Assembly: GCA_943736015.1 (NCBI GenBank)
Contig: OX031062.1
Span: forward strand, 55,416,962 to 55,480,961
Source of the DNA: Tridacna crocea
Lineage: Eukaryota > Mollusca > Bivalvia > Cardiida > Cardiidae
Length of the DNA: 64,000 nucleotides
Direction: 5' to 3'
The translations under genes were made by a program, and so were the position numbers. Positions 1,381 through 15,890 of the stretch are shown piece after piece. Each line of letters begins with the position of its first letter. The first letter of the stretch is position 1. The notes under the pieces are model-generated. The model did no database searches and had not been told where the DNA came from. It worked only from the letters and a program-made list of their open reading frames with translations.

Positions 1381-4300
1381 GTAAGTTGCATTTCATGTTT
1401 CATTTTACTTTTCATGAAATCTGTCAGTCTGTCAGTCTATATTAGTGGCAATTTTTCAAAGTGCATATTGGAAAACAGTGACTTTACTGACATCAGTAAA
1501 CCATTCCACAGAAACAAGATTTTGTTTCTTTAACTCTTTACCAAACAACACAATTTCAGTATGGTCCAAATTAAAAGCATTTGTAGATGTTTAACCCATT
1601 ACCACTCAATGACACCTTTTGACGCCCCTGGGGAAGAAGCCTTTTGAAAACATTGTGGGAAAAGGAGAAAATGCTGGTAACCAGCATTTTCTCCTTTTCC
1701 CACAATGTTTTCTACCCTATCAAAGCAAAATTTCACCAGTTGACCCACTTTGAAATTGTCGTCTGCAAATGCTTTCAATTTGGATAGGTCTAAAATTTTG
1801 CTGTGTGGTAATGGGTTAAATAGAAGTGACACTAAATTTCAAAAAAAGTGTTTCTGAAAGGGTAGAAAACATTATGGGAAAAGAAGAAAATGCTGGTTAC
1901 CAGCATTTTCTCCTTTTCCCACAATGTTTTCTAAAGGCTTCTATCTAAGTGTCATAAAAACCAGGGATTGTGTGGTAAAGGATTAATAGGATAGAAAACT
2001 TATTGGGAAAAGAAGAAAATGCTGGTTACCAGCTTTTTCTTCTGATCCAGAATATTTTCAGAATCCTACTACATTAGGGTGATTAATCCATTACCACACA
2101 ATCCGTACTTTTGATGCCCCTGAGAAAGAAGTCTTTAGAAAACATTGTAGGAAAAGGAGAAAATGCTGGTAACCAGCATTTTCTCCTTTTCCCCCACAAT
2201 GTTTTCTACCCTTCCCAAAACAAAGTTCCATTTTTCAGTGACATTTATTGTTTTATTAAAATGTTTTCAATTTCTAAACTTTTGTTGTTTGGTAAAGAGT
2301 TAGAAACTCAGAGTTGTCTGGTGAAAGGTAAAGTCATACTGCAAGCATTGAGCAGAGCTCCAGATAGAGGGAGTGATTTTGATTTCAAAATTGAAAATAT
2401 CAGTTATTTTCCACAAAACCCTTTTTGTTGGTACTCATTAGAATCATCTCATTGAGTACCCATATTATAGGGTTTGGAAGACAAATAATGGATTTTGAAT
2501 ACCATCACCCCCTCTTGCCTACAGCTCTGATTGGGGCTTCATAATTATCATGATAATTGCTTTTATCAGAGTATAGATAAGGTTTATTCATGGAAGTCTG
2601 TCATTGTTGAAAGCAACACGCTCTTGACTACAAAAATAACCGGAACTGGGACAAAAAAAATGATAATAGGCTTGTGTATTATCAAAATAAGTCATATGTT
2701 TAATACACAGATGGAGGCTTTACGTGCTAAACAAAGTGACAACATATTGAAATGGGCTAATGTATAGAGGGCTTTGTAAAAAGAAAAGAAATATTTCATT
2801 GTACCGAATATTATTATTTTATCACAGGCTTGATGAATCTAGGGAAAATGTGGATAGATCAGAAAAGGTATGTTATTATTACGATGTTTAATATGTTTTA
2901 ATAAGAACTAGGGATCAAAACATACAAATAGTTAAATCTTGTTCAATGTTAATATCCAGCTGATAATTTTGAGTACTTATGCGCAAAGATGAGTTGGCAC
3001 AGTGCATGTGTTGCTCAAACTGGTGGCTCAATTTTGGTTACTGTCAAAACACACCTTTGAATCACAAATTTTTTTGTCAAAAGCCAAGTTACAGGACTAA
3101 CATGTAGAAATTGTACTGCTGGATACATGCATGTCCAGTTGGGTTGTGTATTTTCCTTTGGAAAGGCCCATAACTCTCTCCTTTTCTTTGCAGAAAAGAA
3201 AGAAAAAGTTGTCTGGGAAAAATGAAAAAGGCTCACCAAAAAAGAAACAAAAGGATAAAAAGTCACCAACAAAGAAAAAACACAGTCAGGTAAGATATTT
3301 GCCTTTTTCATTTCCCTGAAGTGTTATAATATAGTCATTGTAACTTCAACCTTCACCATAGTCATAACAGCCCTGAAGAAGAAGGCTTTTGGAAGCATTG
3401 TTGGAAAAGGAAAAAATGCTGGTAACCAGCATTTTCTCCCTTTTCCACAATATTTTCTAGATAGAGAAAGAATGAGATCCAGGTTAGAATTTGTTGGAGA
3501 CTTTTATTTTTCTTTAGAGAATACCCTGCTCTAGTCTCATAGTGGCCACCCCTGTTAAGCGAGCATGTTGTCAGTTTACAGAGATGTGAACTGTATTCAT
3601 AATATACCTTAGAAAGCAAGCACATGTCGCCCCTTCATAGCCATAAGGGCTCATCTGAAAATTTTGTCCAAAATGACTTTTTTATGAATTCTAAATGGGA
3701 ATTTTATGTACTATCCACTACTGAAATATCTAGCAGATCCCTGCTTTCACTAAGTGTATATCTTATAGAATCATAAGGGCTCAACTCCAATATGTCTTAA
3801 TTAGACAAAACCATAAGGGCTCATATGCTACAGTATTTGAACCATAAGGGCTTATCTACATTTAATCTGCAGATGAGCCCCTTTCATTAGTTAGATCACT
3901 TTATAGTGCAGTTCTTCACTTTTGACCTGTAAACACATTGAGGCTGGTAGAAACAAAGAAATAGGCTCAAATTACAGCCATAGTGTGCAATATCTACATC
4001 CAAGGAAGTTGATGTCCAGTTACAGTGTCTGTTCAAGTGAATATTTCGTGTCTTTGGAGGAATCATAGCGCAGGTAAGAACATTTTAGTACTTACAGAAT
4101 AGCTTTCTGCGGTCATTTCAATTTCATTATTTAATTTGATTAAATATGTAACTGACAAATCTTTTGACAAACACTGACCTATGCAAAATGAAGATGAGCC
4201 CTTGTGGCTCAAAGCAGACCTATTGTACAATAAACATCAATTTTCAAAAACTGATCAGCGAGTTTGAATTTGTGTAATAAGAATACATAGGGCAGATGCT

Positions 4301-7300
4301 TTTGCTAAGTTTTGTGCTATTTGGCTTACTATAGATATTTAGTTTTTGACATAATTAGTTACTTGAGCCCTTATGGTCGGATAAAAAATTGAAGGTTTTG
4401 ACGTAAAGAGTCATGATATCAATATTGGTATAAGAGATCATTATTATTATCATTTATTATTGTTTATGGTAGGTGATCTGAATATTATTATTTTTACAAT
4501 CATCATCGTAATCATTATTATTATTGATGATGATGATGATGATATTTGCAATTTGTTTTATTTCTGATTCAATTAGTGTTGTGGTAAAAGTAAGCTTTTA
4601 GCGTAATTTAGTTTTGTTTTAATGGTACATGTACAATGAAGCTTTTAGTGTAGTTTATTTTTTTAAAAACTTGTTTTTTCTTTACTTACAGGTGTATTTG
4701 AAATGGAAGAGGAGTGGTCTGACAATGATTTTTAGCAGGATTTTGACAAAACACTTACTTACAACAACACTGACACAAGTAAAAGTCCAATAGAAACAAG
4801 GAGACATGAGTCTGAAATAGATGACAACATGCTCAACATTGACAGAACCAACATTGACAGAACCAAGGAAAGTCAGTCTGACAACTGCGAAACAGAAGAT
4901 GACGTTCCTTTAGCTAAACATTCATGTATGAACAGAAACAATCTTGAAACAGATGATGATGATGTTCCTTTAGCTAGACTAAAAACCAGAAACAATCTCA
5001 AATCAAAGAAATGTAGTCAACCATCACCATTATCCTCTGACTATGAAAACGACAATGACAAAGACTACTTTCCATCAGGCTGTTCCAGTGACACCAATTC
5101 AGATACTGCAACAGTTACAATTGAGAAAAGGAAAAGGAAGTGGTTGCGAAAAAGAAACAGACCTTTAAAGAGGAACAAAACTAAAATGGTTGCCAGTAAA
5201 CAAGGAAAAACACAAGAACAAGATATGCATCCTTCCAGAGAGAAATATGAAAATGTACAGATGAAAAAGGCCATGCAGGAAAGTGTTCTTACTTATAAAA
5301 TAAACTCAATTCGAAAGAACAACCATTTAAGGAGATTAAATAACATCCTTACTAGCAATAACTTGTCTATCCTAGAAATAGCGGCAGATGGTGATTGTTT
5401 CTTTAATGCTGTCAGCATTCAACTACCATCAGAAAATTACTCTTCTGATGCATTCAGGGTTCGAATTTCATTTTTTTATCCACTTGCAAATTTTAGCAAG
5501 TAGATTTTATTTCCACTTGCAAAATTAAAACTGGACTCGCATTTTTTTTTTGAAGCTCAGCTTGCCTACCAATTGTAAAGAACGAATGGCCGGTAAAAAC
5601 TATTCAATTCTATTCTATTACGTAATCTGTCAACCCGAGACAACAACCAAACAAAAGGAACGTTAATTGACATTAAAACCCTCATTTAACAATCAATTCA
5701 ATTTCAGTTGAATTTCTGTTCTATTGCAAGGTTAAATTTCTACAAAACTTACACTGGTGGACGATTTTGTAAATGAAAAACGGACGTGTCACATCCGAAT
5801 ATCTGCGTGTCCGGTAACTGGTTTAGCGAGTCCACCAAGTCCGACTTGCTTCTCGTTGCTATTTGTGCACAATAATTTATCTTTTCATGGAAGATTGACA
5901 AATGTTTTTGTTTCAAATCAGAGATTGAATTCGCCTACCGGTTTTTCCGTATAAAAAACACGAAACCTCAGTATCGGCTGTGAGTGCAGACGAACGCAAT
6001 TGCCTCACGAAACTCGGGTAACGAACGACAACTCGGAGGCTTCAATGGCGACATTTAAAATTATCGACATCCGTCGAAGGGTGTTCTCAGTGCGATATGA
6101 CCGATGTTTATCCAGAACAAAAAGAATTACCCTTTTTTTTTGTATTCACATATGAAATTTAATACATTTGGTAACTATTCTTCAATAATTTGCACTCGCA
6201 TTTTTTTGCAAGTGCTTGAAATTTCAACTCGCATTTTCCAATTCTGGCTTGCATTTTGCGAGTAAATATATGGGAATTTCGAACCCTGGCATTGCGCCAG
6301 ATGGTATGCGAACATTTGTTACAGAATCAAATGCACTATATTGACTTCTTTAGAAATCCAGAACATTCTGTGGAGGAGGCATTGTGTGAATATACTAAAA
6401 ATGTAGAAGATCTCAAAGGCAATGGAGTATGGAACAAAACACTTGCTGATGCTGTTCCCCTTGCACTTGCAAACGTTTTAAAGCGGCGACTGGTGATTTA
6501 CTCTAGCAGAATAAGTAGTCCAGTTACTCACATTGAACCCAGTATTGAACCCTGTTGCAACACTTTTGGTACTCTCCTTTTTGCTTATTTAGCAATTCCG
6601 GGGCTTGAGCACTATGATGCCTGCATTCAATTACCAAGTGCATGTGGCAATGAGAGAAAAGGCTCAGATGTATCAAAACGGACATCTGGGAATATTACGC
6701 CAAAGAAAATCAGATCAAATTCAATGCCTGTTACGCCTAGGAAAAGCGCAGATTATAAGTCTCCTGAAAAGAAAACCAGAACAAGAAAAAAAGTAGCTCA
6801 CAAAGAAATATGGAAAAAGAACATAAGAAAGGAGCTAAAACTTACCGGGAAAAGCTACTTCTCTCCTACAAGCAAAAGCATGGTTCGTAAGAAGATTCTT
6901 CAACCACATGACTGCAGCAAATGCAGATACCAATGCTCAGCCAATGTATCGGAAGCTGTGAGACAACAAATTTTTGATAATTTCTATGACAGGGATATGT
7001 CATATGAAAGGAAACGGGACTTCATATGTCGTCATCTTGAGGTTAGGCCAACAAATGACAGAAATAAAAAAACATACAAACAAAATGCCCGCTTATATTT
7101 TTTACCAACAGGCGGGAAACTGGTACGTGTCTGTAAACCATTCTTCCTATCGACTATGGATATCAGTGACAAATTGGTTAGATGTACCCTTGCAAACAAA
7201 CAACATGGAACTTTCAAAGCAACAGACCAACGTGGCAAACATGCGCCTGCCAATAAAACATTAGATGAACGGGTGGCCTTTGTAAAACAACATATAGACT

Positions 7301-10300
7301 CCTTTCCTGTTATAGAATCCCATTACAGAAGAAAAGACACCAACAGAAAGTTACTAGGAGCTGATTTAAGCATTAACAAAATGTATGACCTGTACAGAGA
7401 GAAGTGTATGGGTGATAATATTGTACCAATTTCTTCCACTGTATACAGAAATATATTCTGCACAGAATATAACCTTTCCTTTCACAGACCTAAAAAAGAC
7501 ACATGTGATTTCTGCAAGGCGTACAAACAAAAAGAGGAAACAGGCTGTGCAAACGAAACAGAAAAAAAGAACTACCAAGCTCATGTACAGAGGAAAGAAA
7601 GGGCTAGAGTGGAAAAGGAAAGAGATAAAGAACTTGCAAAGGCTAACAAATCGGTGTATGCTGCAACATTCGACTTGCAAGCTGTTTTATACACACCTTG
7701 CTCAAATGTAAGCAAAGTATACTACAAAAGAAAACTGAACTGTTATAATCTAACTGTATATTCACTTTCAGACAAAAAAGGTACTTGCTACCTTTGGGAT
7801 GAGACAAATGGACAGCGAGGGTCATCAGAGATAGGATCATGCCTGATAGCTCACATCAACTGTCTCCCACCAACCATAAAACATGTTGTTTTATATTCCG
7901 ATTGTTGTTCTGGACAAAACAGAAACCAAAATTTAGCTGCCGGTCTGCTACATACTGTTTCATCTAGTACAACAATTGAAAGCATAGAACAAAAATTCTT
8001 GGAGTCGGGTCACGCGCAGATGGAGTGTGACTCTATGCATTCTGCAATAGAACATGCTAAGAGAGGAACATCTATTTTCCATCCTGATCAGTGGGATACA
8101 GTTGTCCATCTAGCACGACGGAACAAGCCCTATGTTGTTGTACCGATGCGGTACGAACATTTCTATGATCTAAAGGGGTATGCCAAGCAAGAGTTTAAGG
8201 AGTTTAAGGTTGACACTGATGGAAATAGAGTAAACTGGTTGAAAGTAAAAGCACTGAAAGTTAAAAAGTCATCACCCAACGAGATATTTGTAAAGGAAAG
8301 CTTTGATGAGGAGAAATTTAAAACTATTCAAGTCAACAGAGGTACACGAGGCAGACCTACTTTGGGACTGAAACCTCTCCCGGCAAAATATGATGATAAT
8401 ATACCTATTTCAGAAGAAAAGAAGAAAGATCTTGTGTCTTTGTGCAACAGCTTAATAATTCCATGTCTGTATAGGCCTTTCTATGACAACTTAAAAACCA
8501 GGAAAACAGTGAAAGACCGTCTTCCAGAGCCTGATATACAGGAGGAAGATGAAGACACTGACTAAATGAAAAATTGTTAATGAACAGTTATGTAAAAGAA
8601 ATAAACTATGTATATAAACATTATAACTTAATTGTAGACATACTGCCACAATTTTGATAAGTTTGCACTGTTGCAATACCTGCCAAATTCGATATGAGCC
8701 CTTATGGCTTTAGAAAATGGATATTCGCTGGAAAGAATTGCTGTGAGCCACAAGAGCTCATCTACAAAAAAGGCCATAAAAGGTAATAAAGGTCATTTAA
8801 TCCTCACAACATTTAAGCATTTAAAAGGGGATAACATAGGTATTTGTTTGTTATAAGTTCAAGTTGACAACATTAATAATGGATTTTTAAAGCAGTTTGA
8901 AACTTTGATTTGTCATTTTCTCAAAAAGATGAAAAATGCAGATGAGCCCTTATGGCTATGAAGGGGCGATGGCTTAAGCTAGCACATTGTAAGTGTCCCA
9001 TAAATAGTTGCTCAACCATTTACCAGGTGACAAAATAGACTAATCCATATTTAATGCATTGGCATACAATACATGAACTGTGACCAAAGTGGTAGAATTT
9101 GTTTTCAGAAGGTAAAAAGTTGTAGAAGAAAATGCTTGGTACCAGCATTTTCCTCTTTTCCCAAATTTGTTTCTAAAGATGACTTTGGTCATTAAAATCA
9201 AGATCGTTTGATACAGGGCTAATATAGGTTTTATTGTTTTTAATCTGTGATATTTCACTGTTTGTAGAAGGGGAAAGATAAGAGAAATGACTTTAGATTT
9301 GAGATAGAAGACGTGAGAGTGGAACCAGACGAAGATGTGCCAAAACAGTGCCTGGGTCCCGGCTGTACAGAGCATGCTCGGACAGGATCAAAGTATTGTT
9401 CAGATGAATGTGGAATGAAATTGGCCAAAAGGTTGTGAGAGCCGATTTTGGTTTTACTCTTCTTTCTCTGCCATGATATTTTTGTATCTTTTCAAAGCAA
9501 CAATTAAATTTGCGGTCATTGATTGGTTGGTTGTATTGGAGTTTAAGCCACTGTGACTCCACTTTAACAGCTGATGTCAAGATCAAGGTTAGACTGCAAA
9601 AACATGTAGTCTGGTCATAGTCTACACTTTCTGCTTTACACACACATTCTAGACAAGTGCAATATTTTTATTGCCATCATTTAATATTTGAAGTAGACTG
9701 AAAAATTCTGTTGGGTTAGGTCTGACAGCAGAATTGGATAAATAATGTGTATTGTTGCCTTATGCAGTGTTCCCAACACCTTCCATTTGCTTTGGTAACC
9801 ATAACAGTTGCAGTGTCTTATCTATTGTGTCTGCAGAGAAAGATATGGCAAAATAATGAAGAAAGCCAACTCTTCACCGACAGACATAACAATAGGCTGT
9901 GCACAAAAAAATTACATTTCAACAATAAAGATGCTCCCAACGCTTAACTCTCTACCAAACAATAAAATTTTGGCCTAGTCCAAACTGAAAGCATTTGCAG
10001 ACAACTATATAAATTTGAATCAAAAATTGAAACCTTATTTGGAAAGGGTAGAAAACATTGTGGGAAAAGGAGAAAATGCTGGTTACCAGCATTTTCTCCT
10101 TTTCCCACATTGTTTTCAAAAGACGTCTTTCTCAGGGCCGTTAAAAGTAGGGATTGTGTGGTAAAAGGTTAAATAATATAGGATTAAAACCTGTATAAGT
10201 ATATAACCTCTATTTCTAAAACTAGTAACATGTATACAAATACAGCTCTGGCAATTTCTGTACAAACAGTCAAATTTAGTGACAGTGAGACATAGACTTA

Positions 10301-13300: not shown

Positions 13301-15890
13301 ACAGTTTGTTTATCTCATCAATAGCTTCAACCCTATTGATTTTGAAAAAAATCCAACAAACAGTATGGGAAAAGTAGCCATTTCAAATTGAAAATTTCAA
13401 ATCATTGTTTACGCCATAAAGTCTGTATTTGTTGCCTGATTTTCATGAAAATCATAGTTTGTTTATCTTATCAGTTAATAAGCTTCAACCCTATTTATTT
13501 TGAGAAAAAAATCAACAAACATTATGGAAAAAGTAGCCATTTCAAGTTGAAAATTTTGAATTCTTGTTTACGGGATAAAATGTCCATTTGTAATTAGATT
13601 TTTGTGAAACTTGCACAATTTGTTTATCTTGCTTATAGCTTCAACCCTATCTATTTTGAAATAAATCCAACAAACAGTATGGGAAAAGAAACCATTTCAA
13701 GTTGAAAATTAACAATTCTTGTTTTCGTGACAAGTATGCATTTCTTGTCAGATTGTCATGAAAAAGCAAAATCGAATTCTCTGCCAGTAGAGCATATTCA
13801 GGCCCTTCAGGGCCTTCTAGTTTTCTTTTCTATTTTTAATTTCATGAAATGCTGTGGCAAGAAAAAAGGGGGCTTAGAGTACAATTTCATTATCAACCAA
13901 TAACAAAAAGGCCATGTGCATATGCAGAACACAAAACCTCCTATATTTGTGTCAAAAAAGTTCTTTTTGCAGGGATATTATTTTTTGAAAGAAGATGGAC
14001 CAGTTCAAGAGTTAAAGCTTGAAATGCATTGTTTAACTCTTTACCACACAATCCCGACTTTTAACAACCCCGAGAAAGAAAGCCTTCTGAAAACATTGAG
14101 GGAAAAGGAGAAAATGCTGGTAACCAGCATTTTCTCCTTTTCCCACAATGTTTTCTACCCTTTCCAAAACAATTGCAAGTTTTCAGCGACTTTTATTTTG
14201 TGGTCTGTAAATGCTTGCAATTTGGATCAGTACAATTTTTGTTTCATTTGGTAAAGAGTTAATGTTTGTTTTTAAATGTATCATCTTATTCAAATTGAAT
14301 AAACACTCGGAAATGAATATAAGAGCACAATTAGCACAGTTTTTACTGATGGAGACATTATTTTAACCCTTAACCCCACAATCCCAACTTTACCCTGACA
14401 GAAAAAGCTTTTGAAAATATTGTTCAAAAACGAGAAAATGCTGGTATCCAGTATTTCTCCTTTTCCCACACTGCTTTTTGTCCTGTCAATGACAAAAATT
14501 AAAATTTTAGCAATTCAAATTCATGTCTATGAGTGCTTTCAGTTTGGTCCAGGCCACAATTTTGTTATTTGGTAAAGACTTAACCCATTTTCAATGTGGC
14601 TCAAATGGTGCAATTTTTCTTTATTAGGATAGAAAACATTGTTGGAAAAGGAGAAAATGCTGGTTATCAGCATTTTCTCTTTTTCCAACAATGTTTTCAA
14701 AAGGCTTCTCACCCAGAGATGTTTTAAGTTGGCATTGTGCGCTAAGGGGTTAAACATCATAGAACAGCACTGGTTCTCAAATATTGTATCACAATTTATG
14801 CTAGGTTTCAGCAGAAGAAGTGTGTGGTTATCCAATTGTATCAGACGTATTTGAGGAAACGGGGGAATTTTGTAGAGTTCCAAAACGAAAATGCACCAAA
14901 CACTATTGCTGGGAGAAATGTCGGCGTGCTCAGATTGATCTGGAGCGTGTGAGACAGGTATGTATTTTATTATGTTGTACAGTGTTTCAGATTGCCTAGG
15001 ATTTCTGTTAGTTTCCAGGGCCAACTATCACTTCAAAAGTTCAGTTCTGTTATTTTTTTTTTTTTATAACAATTATTAGAAGGCCTTCGAAAAACACGTG
15101 GGAAACAAAAGATAATAACCAGCATTTCTTCCTTTTCCCACTATGTTTGCTATCCTGTCAAAGACAAACACTATCCATTGAGACACCTTTAAGTTATCAT
15201 TTAACAAACCTTTTCTAAAAGGACAAGTCTAAAATTTTGTTGTGTGTTAAGAAATGACCCGCAATAGTTTTAATAAGCTGTATGTGACATCCAGTACTTG
15301 AAATGTTTTAAGCATTTGAACTCAGATACTGAAAAGATTTTTGCCGTCAACTTCGTTCCACTTGACAAAATATCAGCCATGCAAATTGATATAAAACATT
15401 TTTGAAAAAAACAGAAAATGCTGGTTACCAGCATTTTCTCCTTTTCCCATAATTTTTTCAGTTAGCAGCTCTGTCAGGGCTGTTAAAAGTCAGGATTGTG
15501 TGGTAAAAGGTGGTAAAGGGTTAACTCCTTACCAAATAACAATATTCGAGATGGACGACAGTAGAGAAGGAAAACATGCTGATTACTAGCATTTCCTGTT
15601 AAATAGGGACCCTCTGGGAACTGTGGAGAGTGTCGACCCTTTTCAAGTGACATGCCATTTTTTTCTGAAGTTATTTTTTATAAGTTGGTCAACACATGAA
15701 TTGTTTACCAGTACTGGAGGTCATTTCATTGAATTTTTTTTTTCAGTGGATGAAGATAGATGAACTGTTTGAACAAGAAAGAAATGTACGGCACACAATT
15801 TCCAACAGAATGGGTGTTCTAGGGCTGATGTTACATCAGGCTGTTGACCACAACCCTCTAAACCCTATCATTGTGCCTGACATGGACTGA
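1292..15890 (+). CDS. CXXC1: CXXC-type zinc finger protein 1 (CFP1), 3' nine exons
   Basis: Exons: 1292-1380, 2828-2867, 3194-3289, 9268-9431, 10331-10541, 11110-11217, 12061-12204, 14805-14957, 15747-15890 (stop TGA). Every intron is GT..AG, all phases agree, and together they give 382 residues. CFP1 binds unmethylated CpG and targets SET1 complexes to promoters. What is seen is an acidic linker, a lysine-rich basic stretch, then the cysteine-rich C-terminal domain (CpG_bind_C type), beginning with QCLGPGC..H..TGSKYCSDECG. A coiled coil follows, then FCVTCG..VALKHMEKC, FCDFYN..TYCKRL..LCPEH, EEVCGYP..DVFEETGEFC, KHYCWEK, and the tail ELFEQERNVR. These match vertebrate CFP1 in order. The PHD and CXXC fingers must lie upstream of the window. 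The intron at 3290-9267 carries the OTU-transposase element in the same orientation. Identity is secure; the first three exons rest on splice signals, phase and composition. Confidence 0.93.
1530..1986 (-). mobile_element. TTAA-hairpin MITE split by a second copy
   Basis: Outer copy of subfamily A, reversed. Its left arm (1530-1590) and hairpin half (1820-1986) are separated by a complete second copy at 1591-1819. Confidence 0.8.
1591..1819 (+). mobile_element. TTAA-hairpin MITE nested in another copy
   Basis: Complete subfamily A copy, TTAACCCATTACC to GGTAATGGGTTAA. It sits inside the older reversed copy that resumes at 1820, so its boundaries are fixed by the interruption. Confidence 0.88.
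1987..2082 (-). mobile_element. TTAA-hairpin MITE fragment
   Basis: Hairpin half plus one end (AGAAAATGCTGGTTACCAGC) abutting the neighbouring copy; the far end is missing. Confidence 0.55.
2083..2302 (+). mobile_element. TTAA-hairpin MITE, subfamily A
   Basis: Full-length copy from TTAATCCATTACC to GGTAAAGAGTTA with an intact hairpin. Confidence 0.85.
2356..2528. mobile_element. AGCTCCAGATA MITE
   Basis: About 175 bp. The left end AGCTCCAGATAGAGGGAGTG is mirrored by a decayed right end (CCCCCTCTTGCCTACAGCT). The centre is an inverted repeat around GGTACTCATTAGAATC. The best copy is at 55938-56123; a third is near 25.7 kb. Confidence 0.7.
2828..2867 (+). CDS. CXXC1: CXXC1 exon b (putative)
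   Basis: Forty-nucleotide exon between ATCACAG and GTATGT encoding LDESRENVDRSEK. It enters in phase 2 and leaves in phase 0, matching both neighbours. Confidence 0.65.
3194..3289 (+). CDS. CXXC1: CXXC1 exon c (basic stretch)
   Basis: Acceptor CTTTGCAG and donor GTAAGA. The 32 codons are almost entirely lysine and polar residues (KRKKKLSGKNEKGSPKKKQK...). This corresponds to the lysine-rich region that precedes the C-terminal domain in vertebrate CFP1. It is the last exon before the transposon-bearing intron. Confidence 0.8.
3364..3462 (+). mobile_element. TTAA-hairpin MITE fragment
   Basis: Only the hairpin core and part of the left side remain (GGAAAAAATGCTGGTAACC). Confidence 0.6.
3627..3657 (+). 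repeat. Left terminal inverted repeat of OTU-transposase element
   Basis: 31 bases identical to the reverse complement of 8939-8969; identity stops right after CTCATCTG on the inner side. Confidence 0.9.
3773..4376. repeat. Left subterminal repeats of the transposon
   Basis: Copies of CATAAGGGCTCA or its complement TGAGCCCTTATG at about 3773, 3811, 3842, 3872, 4192 and 4363, in mixed orientation. They lie in otherwise unique AT-rich DNA between the TIR and the coding frame. Confidence 0.75.
4074..4691 (+). other. Probable 5'-leader intron of the transposon gene
   Basis: CGCAG|GTAAGA at 4074 and TTTACTTACAG ending at 4691 make a consensus intron directly before ATG 4703. It contains an ATT/GAT microsatellite (about 4500-4545). 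Inferred from splice signals only. Confidence 0.55.
4703..8565 (+). pseudogene. OTU-domain/transposase fusion protein, disrupted
   Basis: Coding segments 4703-5454 and 6294-8565 are in one frame (about 1,007 residues) once the nested element and one GCATT copy are ignored. Order: an acidic, low-complexity, basic N-terminus with a twofold repeat around DDVPLA; an OTU cysteine-protease domain with ADGDCFFNAVS (putative catalytic Cys232) and LEHYDAC (putative His357); a basic linker; cysteine clusters HDCSKCRYQC and DTCDFC; then a C-terminal domain with FDLQ (Asp711), YSDCCSGQNRNQN (Asp787) and ESGHAQMECDSMH (Glu828). The last three could be a DDE-like triad. From memory the C-terminal part resembles a eukaryotic family labelled DUF7869; this was not checked. 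Damage: TAG at codon 11 (4733-4735) and the 834-bp insertion inside the OTU domain. The next in-frame ATG is 4829. The OTU role (ubiquitin cleavage) and the transposase role are inferences from motifs. Confidence 0.8.
5455..6288. mobile_element. Nested 834-bp TIR element, hAT-like
   Basis: Ends CAGGGTTCGAA...TTCGAACCCTG, flanked by direct repeat GCATT (5450-5454 and 6289-6293). Subterminal CTCGCATTTT and CTTGCAAA motifs recur near both ends. It has no long frame, so it is non-autonomous. CAGGG ends resemble hAT elements, and 5-bp duplications are known for some hAT groups; the class is an inference. Precise removal rejoins the OTU frame. Confidence 0.8.
8694..8760. repeat. Right subterminal repeats of the transposon
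   Basis: ATGAGCCCTTATGGC at about 8694 and GAGCCACAAGAGCTCATC at about 8745 are internal copies of the TIR core. Confidence 0.7.
8939..8969 (-). repeat. Right terminal inverted repeat of OTU-transposase element
   Basis: Exact reverse complement of 3627-3657. Confidence 0.9.
9010..9225 (-). mobile_element. TTAA-hairpin MITE, degenerate
   Basis: Eroded copy; the core survives as GAAAATGCTTGGTACCAGC and both ends are poor. It lies just 3' of the transposon. Confidence 0.5.
9268..9431 (+). CDS. CXXC1: CXXC1 exon d: start of the C-terminal Cys-rich domain
   Basis: Acceptor TTTGTAG and donor GTTGTG, an unusual donor. Encodes KQCLGPGCTEHARTGSK and YCSDECGMKLAK, diagnostic of CFP1. Ends with two bases of a codon. 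Confidence 0.92.
9944..10172 (-). mobile_element. TTAA-hairpin MITE, subfamily A
   Basis: Full-length reversed copy, TTAACTCTCTACC to GGTAAAAGGTTAA, with an intact hairpin. Confidence 0.85.
10331..10541 (+). CDS. CXXC1: CXXC1 exon e: coiled coil
   Basis: Encodes RIYELLPPKIQQWQSSPCVA followed by a heptad-rich charged helix (KIRREQLETRQKLVDLDLKH). This matches the coiled-coil part of CFP1. Donor GTAAAA. Confidence 0.93.
10907..11028. mobile_element. Fold-back derivative of the TTAA MITE
   Basis: Both halves are the left side of the family in opposite orientation: TTAACCCTTTACCAAACAAT...CCTGAGATAGAAGCC...AGGCTTTTGTCGCAGGG...TAGTAAAGGGTCAA. The usual hairpin and right side are absent. Confidence 0.7.
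11110..11217 (+). CDS. CXXC1: CXXC1 exon f
   Basis: Acceptor ATGTTGCAG and donor GTATTT. Encodes MFCVTCGLEVNQKVALKH then MEKCFAK, the cysteine/histidine cluster of the C-terminal domain. Confidence 0.93.
11288..11480 (+). mobile_element. TTAA-hairpin MITE, degenerate
   Basis: TTAACCCCTTACCAGAAG start and a weak core (GAAAATAGTGGTAACCAGCA). Confidence 0.45.
11521..11692 (-). mobile_element. TTAA-hairpin MITE, degenerate
   Basis: Reversed and eroded; GGTTGTCAG core and a GTAAATGGTTTGAG end. Confidence 0.4.
11785..12042. mobile_element. Tc1/mariner-like MITE
   Basis: TA-flanked element with inverted ends CAGTCAGACATAAGTTAAGC and GCTTAACTTATGTCTGACTG, about 258 bp, no coding frame. Its right end lies only 18 bp before the acceptor of the next CXXC1 exon, so it supplies part of the intron end. 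Confidence 0.8.
12061..12204 (+). CDS. CXXC1: CXXC1 exon g
   Basis: Acceptor TATTCTTACAG and donor GTAAAT. Encodes FEAQTSFGSIYKTRIEGNSM, FCDFYNSQQKTYCKRL and LCPEHTKEPR, aligning with the central C-terminal domain of CFP1. Confidence 0.94.
12527..13820 (+). mobile_element. Helitron-like element with 155-bp tandem core
   Basis: Starts TTAGCTCTACTGGC and ends with hairpin GGCCCTTCAGGGCC then TTCTAG followed by T. The inverted subterminal pair is CTCTACTGGC/GCCAGTAGAG. A GTCC-rich stretch follows the start. The body is a tandem array of a 155-bp unit with starts near 12631, 12786, 12941, 13096, 13251, 13406, 13565 and 13719. CTAG ends with a 3' hairpin fit Helitron-like non-autonomous elements; the related copy at 37208 has an empty site. 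Confidence 0.72.
14033..14262 (+). mobile_element. TTAA-hairpin MITE, subfamily A
   Basis: Full length, TTAACTCTTTACC to GGTAAAGAGTTAA, with a near-perfect hairpin. Confidence 0.88.
14363..14583 (+). mobile_element. TTAA-hairpin MITE, subfamily A
   Basis: Complete but diverged; its closing TTAA (14580-14583) is also the opening TTAA of the next copy. Confidence 0.8.
14580..14753 (-). mobile_element. TTAA-hairpin MITE, internally deleted
   Basis: Reversed copy lacking much of the GTCTGCAAATGC side. It shares TTAA with the previous copy and ends 51 bp before a CXXC1 exon. Confidence 0.75.
14805..14957 (+). CDS. CXXC1: CXXC1 exon h
   Basis: Acceptor TTATGCTAG was chosen over the nearby TTTCAG because only it keeps phase and yields VSAEEVCGYPIVSDVFEETG, which aligns with vertebrate CFP1. 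Continues with GEFCRVPKRKCTKHYCWEK. Donor GTATGT. Confidence 0.93.
15078..15249 (+). mobile_element. TTAA-hairpin MITE, degenerate
   Basis: Left end missing; hairpin weak (GATAATAACCAGCATTTCTT); right side recognisable by AAGTCTAAAATTTTGTTG. Confidence 0.5.
15385..15524 (-). mobile_element. TTAA-hairpin MITE, truncated
   Basis: Hairpin GAAAATGCTGGTTACCAGC plus a GGTAAAGGGTTAA end; the other end is lost. Confidence 0.65.
15747..15890 (+). CDS. CXXC1: CXXC1 final exon with stop
   Basis: Acceptor TTTTTTTTTTTCAG. Encodes WMKIDELFEQERNVRHTISN, then LGLMLHQAVDHNP, and ends at TGA 15888-15890. ELFEQERNVR is a strongly conserved CFP1 C-terminal signature. Confidence 0.95.
   Translation, partial: WMKIDELFEQERNVRHTISNRMGVLGLMLHQAVDHNPLNPIIVPDMD

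Follow-up and report, generated by a model that had tools for sequence, protein, structure and literature searches.

A decayed DNA transposon in Tridacna crocea from a family that joins OTU or VTD deubiquitinase domains to a DUF7869 transposase-like domain

Why should a DNA transposon carry a deubiquitinase? The question is raised by an element in a 64,000-nucleotide stretch of the bivalve Tridacna crocea (hereafter the window; GenBank assembly GCA_943736015.1, contig OX031062.1, positions 55,416,962 to 55,480,961, forward strand), which was originally predicted to be a transposon fusing an OTU deubiquitinase domain to a transposase-type domain. Mobile elements with deubiquitinase-like domains were already on record by 2010, without a known use for the domains (PMC2836005). 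The predicted fusion was borne out, since both domains occur in many other animal sequences. The window copy itself is decayed and dead, but some relatives carry an unrelated deubiquitinase, VTD, in the place of OTU, and the same transposase line has apparently acquired a deubiquitinase domain independently at least twice. Two unrelated folds at one place point to an activity rather than to a fold. We think it probable, though far from assured, that in this cut-and-paste transposon the fused domain would free the transposase or its complex of ubiquitin and so avert degradation.

All of the predicted motif blocks (the Cys loop and His motif of OTU, plus FDLQ, YSD..GQN and ESGHAQMECD) are present in the window. 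They do not share one frame, as had been proposed: the Cys loop lies in an open reading frame (ORF) at 4736-5503 and the His and transposase blocks in another at 6220-8565, in a different frame, with a nested element between the two and a stop codon after the likely start. The first coding piece (4703..5454, plus strand) starts at a likely ATG at 4703, meets an in-frame TAG ten codons later (4733-4735), and encodes an acidic and basic N-terminus and the start of the OTU domain, the first part of which, with the DGDC loop, spans about 5303-5454. The second piece (6289..8565, plus strand, within ORF 6220-8565) encodes the OTU remainder with EHYDAC (6289-6636), a linker, the DUF7869 transposase-like domain, the C-terminus and a stop. 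When compared with the related protein P0003, the first piece showed 30% identity over 191 aligned positions (E 7e-15) and the second 54% over 767. A Pfam scan of the window pieces reported no OTU; the family's own OTU profile matches them as two halves, with profile positions 2-56 in the first piece (E 7e-15) and 50-166 in the second (E 1.5e-36). The nested element (5455..6288, 834 bp) splits the domain, with the Cys loop on one side and the His motif on the other. It has 15-bp terminal inverted repeats (TIRs; CAGGGTTCGAATTTC, 93% complementary), with GCATT duplicated on its left (5450..5454) and right (6289..6293), and its ends are, we presume, hAT-like. That it is an insertion is supported by a further copy of the transposon (C5), which is uninterrupted at this site; another copy (C17) is deleted across the site and is uninformative.

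The OTU domain was readily found elsewhere in the family. Among 107 related proteins, seven (P0001-P0004, P0009, P0035 and P0042; 868-1001 residues) have precomputed Pfam matches to both OTU and DUF7869, and others have a match to one of the two. A further protein search, for which the OTU-type alignment served as query, gave 18 rows, 11 of them new. In a 40-member set (A1), Pfam found OTU in 19 and DUF7869 in 29 (E 0.001), and the domain order is OTU N-terminal, DUF7869 C-terminal. The OTU matches of P0003 (39.1 bits), P0001 (41.9) and P0020 (32.9) exceed the Pfam cutoff of 23.3, and the family profile also matches the structures of OTU domain-containing proteins 2, 3 and 5, at best with E 6e-10 (8c83_x). 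Profile searches of the kind suggested in the original prediction therefore confirmed both domains in relatives. Across 59 OTU stretches, 52 of the 53 rows that cover the Cys retain it, and 56 of 57 retain the His, P0075 being the sole exception. These counts take in both pieces of the window copy as well as the 16 rows from which the OTU profile was built, and they omit rows too decayed for this profile. Since these two residues are kept while the median column retains its commonest residue in only 37% of rows, the OTU domain of the family would appear to be the trace of an enzyme under selection, presumably an active deubiquitinase, even though the present copy is dead.

Two relatives in the same genome (the assembly searched, 1.05 Gb in 31 contigs) have no OTU domain. 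These are L044 (2223-5303, minus strand) and L045 (1785-4733, plus strand), whose long open frames run to 1027 and 983 codons from one stop to the next, and in both a Herpes_teg_N domain (PF04843; 29.2 and 37.2 bits, cutoff 25) lies ahead of DUF7869 (PF25273). L044 also has a 30-bp TIR starting CGCGGG, with ATAT on either side. A search with L045 matched 38 proteins, five of which carry PF04843 and PF25273 as precomputed matches; PF04843 is precomputed for P0119-P0123 and absent for P0124. The VTD-type profile matched 8add_A in PDB, which we take to be the Helitron VTD whose structure was determined in PMC9741609, with an E of 2.2e-11, and herpesvirus tegument chains with E 9e-7 and weaker; single-sequence PDB searches with the VTD-type proteins matched neither. 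In the VTD rows the Cys is present in 6 of 6 where the Cys region exists and Asp-x-His in 7 of 8, with P0121 and P0124 being without the region that precedes the Cys. Both motifs are described as invariable in VTDs (PMC9741609). When the OTU-type and VTD-type profiles were compared, 579 columns aligned (E 4e-152), all of them in the transposase part and none in the deubiquitinases.

A tree of 139 rows (quick, midpoint-rooted, with SH-aLRT support from an approximate likelihood-ratio test and no bootstrap) gathered every one of the 40 OTU rows into a single group of 60 (SH-aLRT 97), while a second group, of 10 rows, holds all 8 VTD rows (SH-aLRT 99). The other 20 rows of the OTU group, 18 of them short and two longer (P0028 and P0033), have no OTU match, and we read them as truncated; the other two rows of the VTD group are short. 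The two groups are separate and both are placed among rows in which no deubiquitinase was found, and no sequence among the 139 matches both profiles. The VTD label alone requires three changes, one of them forced. In addition, L033, L035 and L048 in the same genome have a transposase without a deubiquitinase match. This distribution is consistent with separate acquisitions of OTU and VTD by one transposase line. A single genome holds all three states of this line, with OTU, with VTD and with no deubiquitinase detected, and the question of what the domains are for thereby becomes testable.

The transposase part is DUF7869, which in the window falls below the Pfam cutoff (E 5.6e-4; 20 bits, cutoff 26) and in four of nine singly scanned relatives, plus L044 and L045, lies above it. 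The candidate catalytic region (7435..8139, plus strand) contains D465 (in FDLQ), D541 (in YSD) and E582 and D584 (in MECD), numbered along the second piece, and these residues are kept in 91 of 91, 89 of 91, 85 of 88 and 87 of 88 rows, respectively. The spacing of D465, D541 and E582-D584 resembles that of an insertion-free DDE core. Since D407 (90/91), E508 (90/91) and E517 (acidic in 90/91) are conserved as strongly, the assignment of the triad is provisional. Taken with the TIRs and target duplications, the residues suggest that DUF7869 is an RNase H-like DDE/D transposase; a crude propensity profile is only suggestive of an RNase H fold. Beyond chance-level matches, searches of Pfam, NCBIfam and PDB returned DUF7869, OTU and, in relatives, VTD, such that the superfamily is not given by sequence. 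One of the chance-level matches, DDE_Tnp_IS240 in L044 (E 0.18), does not fall on the expected residues. Upstream lies a CSKCRYQC cysteine cluster (6913..6936, plus strand), a possible metal site, in which Cys 215 and Cys 219 each occur in 79 of 90 rows.

A protein search of the genome gave at least 66 matching stretches, and ends were inspected at 16 loci, namely L009, L010, L041-L053 and the window. Of these, 12 yielded termini and four (L045, L051, L052 and L053) did not. Perfect 4-bp duplications lie beside CG-starting ends in 8 of the 12 copies: AATT in L010, AAAT in L041, ATAT in L042, L044 and L048, ACTT in L046, ATAA in L049 and ACAT in L050. Four of the eight are palindromes (ATAT or AATT), so that duplication and TIR are inseparable within that copy alone; the other four are non-palindromic. 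As for the remaining copies with termini, the window matches at three of four bases, L043 has a mismatch, L047 has lost its right end and the ends of L009 are altered. L050 is of OTU type and 4,616 bp long, and its two domains are spread over two frames. Candidate ends at this locus were limited to those that had a CG close to the terminus and matched at three or more of four bases; the chosen ends also form the longest inverted repeat there (45 bp).

In the window, the inverted-repeat search and the letters themselves agree with the predicted TIRs, which are perfect over 31 bp (3627-3657 and 8939-8969); the search extends them to 38 bp at 92%. The subterminal arrays were likewise recovered: the 15-bp TIR core has eight matches with at most two mismatches, all within the element, against 0.13 expected per 64 kb. 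They include left subterminal repeats at 3810-3824 and 3841-3855 (plus) and at 4194-4208 and 4363-4377 (minus), and right ones at 8694-8708 (minus) and 8747-8761 (plus). The element is real, whereas its exact borders, given as 3627..8969, are more likely 3628-8968, because a 4-bp duplication fits the family better. On this reading, the left TIR starts with CG (3628..3657, plus) and the right one ends with CG (8939..8968, minus), flanked by ATGT (3624..3627) and by ATGG (8969..8972), which is one base unlike the left. A 2-bp duplication (TG, AT) was considered for the window copy and the C5 copy but rejected, since the match between related copies extends over 4 bp and neither L043 nor L049 has the left-end T which a 2-bp reading requires; the ends of L043 agree with neither length. 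Between the left end and the likely ATG, motifs alone indicate a putative 5' untranslated intron (4074..4691, plus strand) with a GTAAGA donor and a TTTACTTACAG acceptor.

Outside the element, exon-like stretches of a host gene, which we take to resemble CXXC1/CFP1, flank it at about 3194-3291 and 9269-9437; the transposon would sit in an intron of this gene, in the sense direction. The window also contains 46 copies of a palindrome, AAATGCTGGTWACCAGCATTT, between 646 and 63604 (at most three mismatches; mean in shuffles 0.00), for example at 1669-1689, 2161-2181 and 14112-14132. It forms the core of a longer fold-back repeat and is present too in several other loci fetched from the same genome.

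A search of the genome with the left 274 bases of the element returned, besides the window copy and the right TIR of that copy, two more copies, C17 and C5. Both contain transposase coding DNA with broken frames, plus OTU remnants, namely the second part of the domain only in C17 and weak fragments in C5. Hence other copies with the same TIR do not lack the coding region altogether, nor is OTU confined to this locus, being found in other families of the genome and in other species; either outcome would have spoken against the original prediction. Of the features that it proposed to look for among copies, target duplications were found in the family, while the frames of the window, C17 and C5 copies are not intact. 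These three copies also gave no signal of purifying selection: differences from the window copy at codon positions 1, 2 and 3 are near even, at 43, 42 and 49 for C17 and 91, 82 and 110 for C5. All three are fossils. In the C17 copy (locus L009) the outermost bases of the TIR are gone, and its flanks are TCCTATATGC and TCCTAGATGC (L009 1010-1019 and 5295-5304), a 9-of-10 direct repeat unlike the family's 4-bp duplications.

Relatives have fared differently. L041-L043 are 99.5-99.9% identical over 3.27 kb, L046 and L047 are 99.8% identical over 3.25 kb with a common TIR, and L048 and L049 are 99.3% identical over 5.1 kb. Because these near-identical copies occupy different places, they suggest that relatives of the window element moved recently. 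No deubiquitinase match was found in L041-L043, L046 or L047; the frames of L041-L043 are broken as well, and these three therefore probably moved in trans. Scans of viral contigs by protein and by TIR found nothing, and a scan of genome contigs gave a fragment on one contig of a metagenome-assembled genome (MAG; L001), probably not bacterial in origin. Five family proteins (P0011, P0044, P0113, P0115 and P0121) are filed under symbiont MAGs (Candidatus Thiodiazotropha and Sedimenticola), and are probably host-animal contamination of these bacterial assemblies.

These observations can be accommodated in a model in which a protein made up of an OTU cysteine protease at the N-terminus and an RNase-H-like DDE/D transposase (DUF7869) at the C-terminus would bind the terminal and subterminal repeats, cut the CG-starting ends and join them to the target with a 4-bp stagger. 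The fused domain would strip ubiquitin either from this transposase or from proteins present at the transposition complex, and the complex would thereby escape degradation before acting. The original prediction had raised the idea that OTU might protect the transposase or counter host ubiquitin signalling, and this idea is strengthened because relatives carry another deubiquitinase fold in the same position. Protection of the transposase seems to us the likeliest role because of the fusion in cis, the kept active-site residues and the two folds. The same protective role has been suggested for Helitron VTDs, which are active deubiquitinases in vitro and cleave K48 chains among others; the same account mentions cnidarian VTDs fused to transposon-associated domains and states that, as of 2022, activity tests of transposon OTU domains were lacking (PMC9741609). 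Alternatively, the enzyme might act on the host DNA-damage or repair response at excision and insertion sites rather than on transposase stability, as put forward for the OTU and Ulp1 domains of Ginger1 (PMC2836005). Fusion to the transposase would bring it to the break, and either fold could serve. We nevertheless consider this doubtful: the present data do not separate the targets, and K48 cleavage by Helitron VTDs is at least equally compatible with protection from degradation (PMC9741609). It is less likely still that OTU or VTD disarms a ubiquitin-using host silencing or innate defence, for example in the germ line, even though VTD genes of the male germ line appear domesticated from transposons and their ancestors have been suggested to overcome a limit on transposon inheritance (PMC9741609). 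An antagonist of this kind need not be fused to the transposase, and yet 50 of 119 sequences with either domain have the two in one predicted protein; a further 9 of the 119 have OTU and no DDE match, free-standing deubiquitinase genes not having been searched for.

Two other explanations would deny the domain, or the element, any such role. Decay of the window copy and its two siblings, with differences spread near evenly over codon positions, would be expected if the OTU segment were a chance capture or inert ballast, but retention of the catalytic Cys and His and occupation of the same place by an unrelated deubiquitinase in relatives make this very improbable. Similarly, the annotation of certain relatives as ordinary proteins would fit a host gene or chimeric retrogene; given the TIRs and 4-bp duplications, the occurrence of near-identical copies on different contigs and the many matching stretches in the genome, we give that idea almost no credence. 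There are, in addition, several points that weigh against the protective role and the double acquisition that we favour, among them the make-up of the Cys and His counts described above. Searches with the protein or its profiles matched no transposase structure, and none of the OTU-type loci examined in the genome encodes OTU together with a complete DDE part in a single frame. L048 and L049, in which no deubiquitinase was found, are 99.3% identical and have 4-bp duplications; lineages without a detected deubiquitinase thus also move, and the transposase as such can do without the domain. On the tree, the OTU label alone requires 18 changes, ten of them forced by well-supported branches, because short rows without an OTU match sit inside the OTU group. 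An earlier quick tree of 96 rows had 40 of 41 OTU rows in a 59-row group (support 88) with P0070 just outside, and both trees are quick, midpoint-rooted and without bootstrap.

Beyond the single element, we tentatively entertain the possibility that DUF7869 defines an undescribed superfamily of animal DDE/D transposons, with CG ends and 4-bp duplications, that independently acquired OTU and VTD at the same N-terminal place. If so, removal of ubiquitin would be a repeatedly evolved aid to DDE transposition, for which sister lineages without a deubiquitinase would serve as natural controls. A literature search found no paper containing the word DUF7869 and no description of a deubiquitinase-DUF7869 fusion; Repbase and published repeat libraries lay outside this search, and the family may be named there. 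Sola transposons have a 4-bp duplication and a DDD transposase, and this family shares the duplication. Subterminal repeats of the TIR core are a trait of CACTA elements. The window element has them too, and duplications in EnSpm/CACTA and its kin (the EnSpm/CACTA-Mirage-Chapaev-Transib group, CMCT) are of 2-5 bp; CMCT transposases have C(2)C and H(3-4)H between the second D and the last E, and their elements mostly have CA..TG ends (PMC12730594). Here the only Cys or His columns of at least 85% between D541 and E582 are C543 and H578, and the ends are CG..CG, which places the family outside CMCT. The hAT, P, MuDR, Kolobok and Dada transposases have C/DxxH between the second D and the last E (PMC9587614). 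A DxxH is present here (D584 and H587), and the later acidic columns are weaker (E591 88%, D717 91%, E755 90%).

OTU on transposons as such is already known from Ginger1 and Helitron (PMC2836005). Ginger1, like the present family, is an animal cut-and-paste element with a transposase and an OTU or Ulp1 cysteine protease, but there the protease is C-terminal to a Gypsy-integrase-like transposase, whereas here it is N-terminal to DUF7869 (PMC2836005). Indeed, the 40 members of the A1 set gave only DUF7869 and OTU in Pfam (E 0.001), with OTU N-terminal, and so do not belong to Ginger1. Nor is this a Helitron: Helitrons have no TIR and no target duplication, both of which are present here, and no Rep or helicase match was found in Pfam. 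Helitrons and Helentrons are nevertheless alike in being mobile elements with OTU, VTD or both, of which the VTDs are tested deubiquitinases (PMC9741609, PMC4067079). They differ in having a RepHel protein (PMC9741609), in place of which we find inverted repeats, 4-bp duplications and a DDE-like domain. Finally, L044 and L045 match the herpesvirus large tegument deubiquitinase (PF04843) above the Pfam cutoff, but in these relatives the VTD is fused to a transposase, and the window element has OTU instead. The exchange of OTU and VTD within this family parallels one reported for herpesviruses and Helitrons (PMC9741609).

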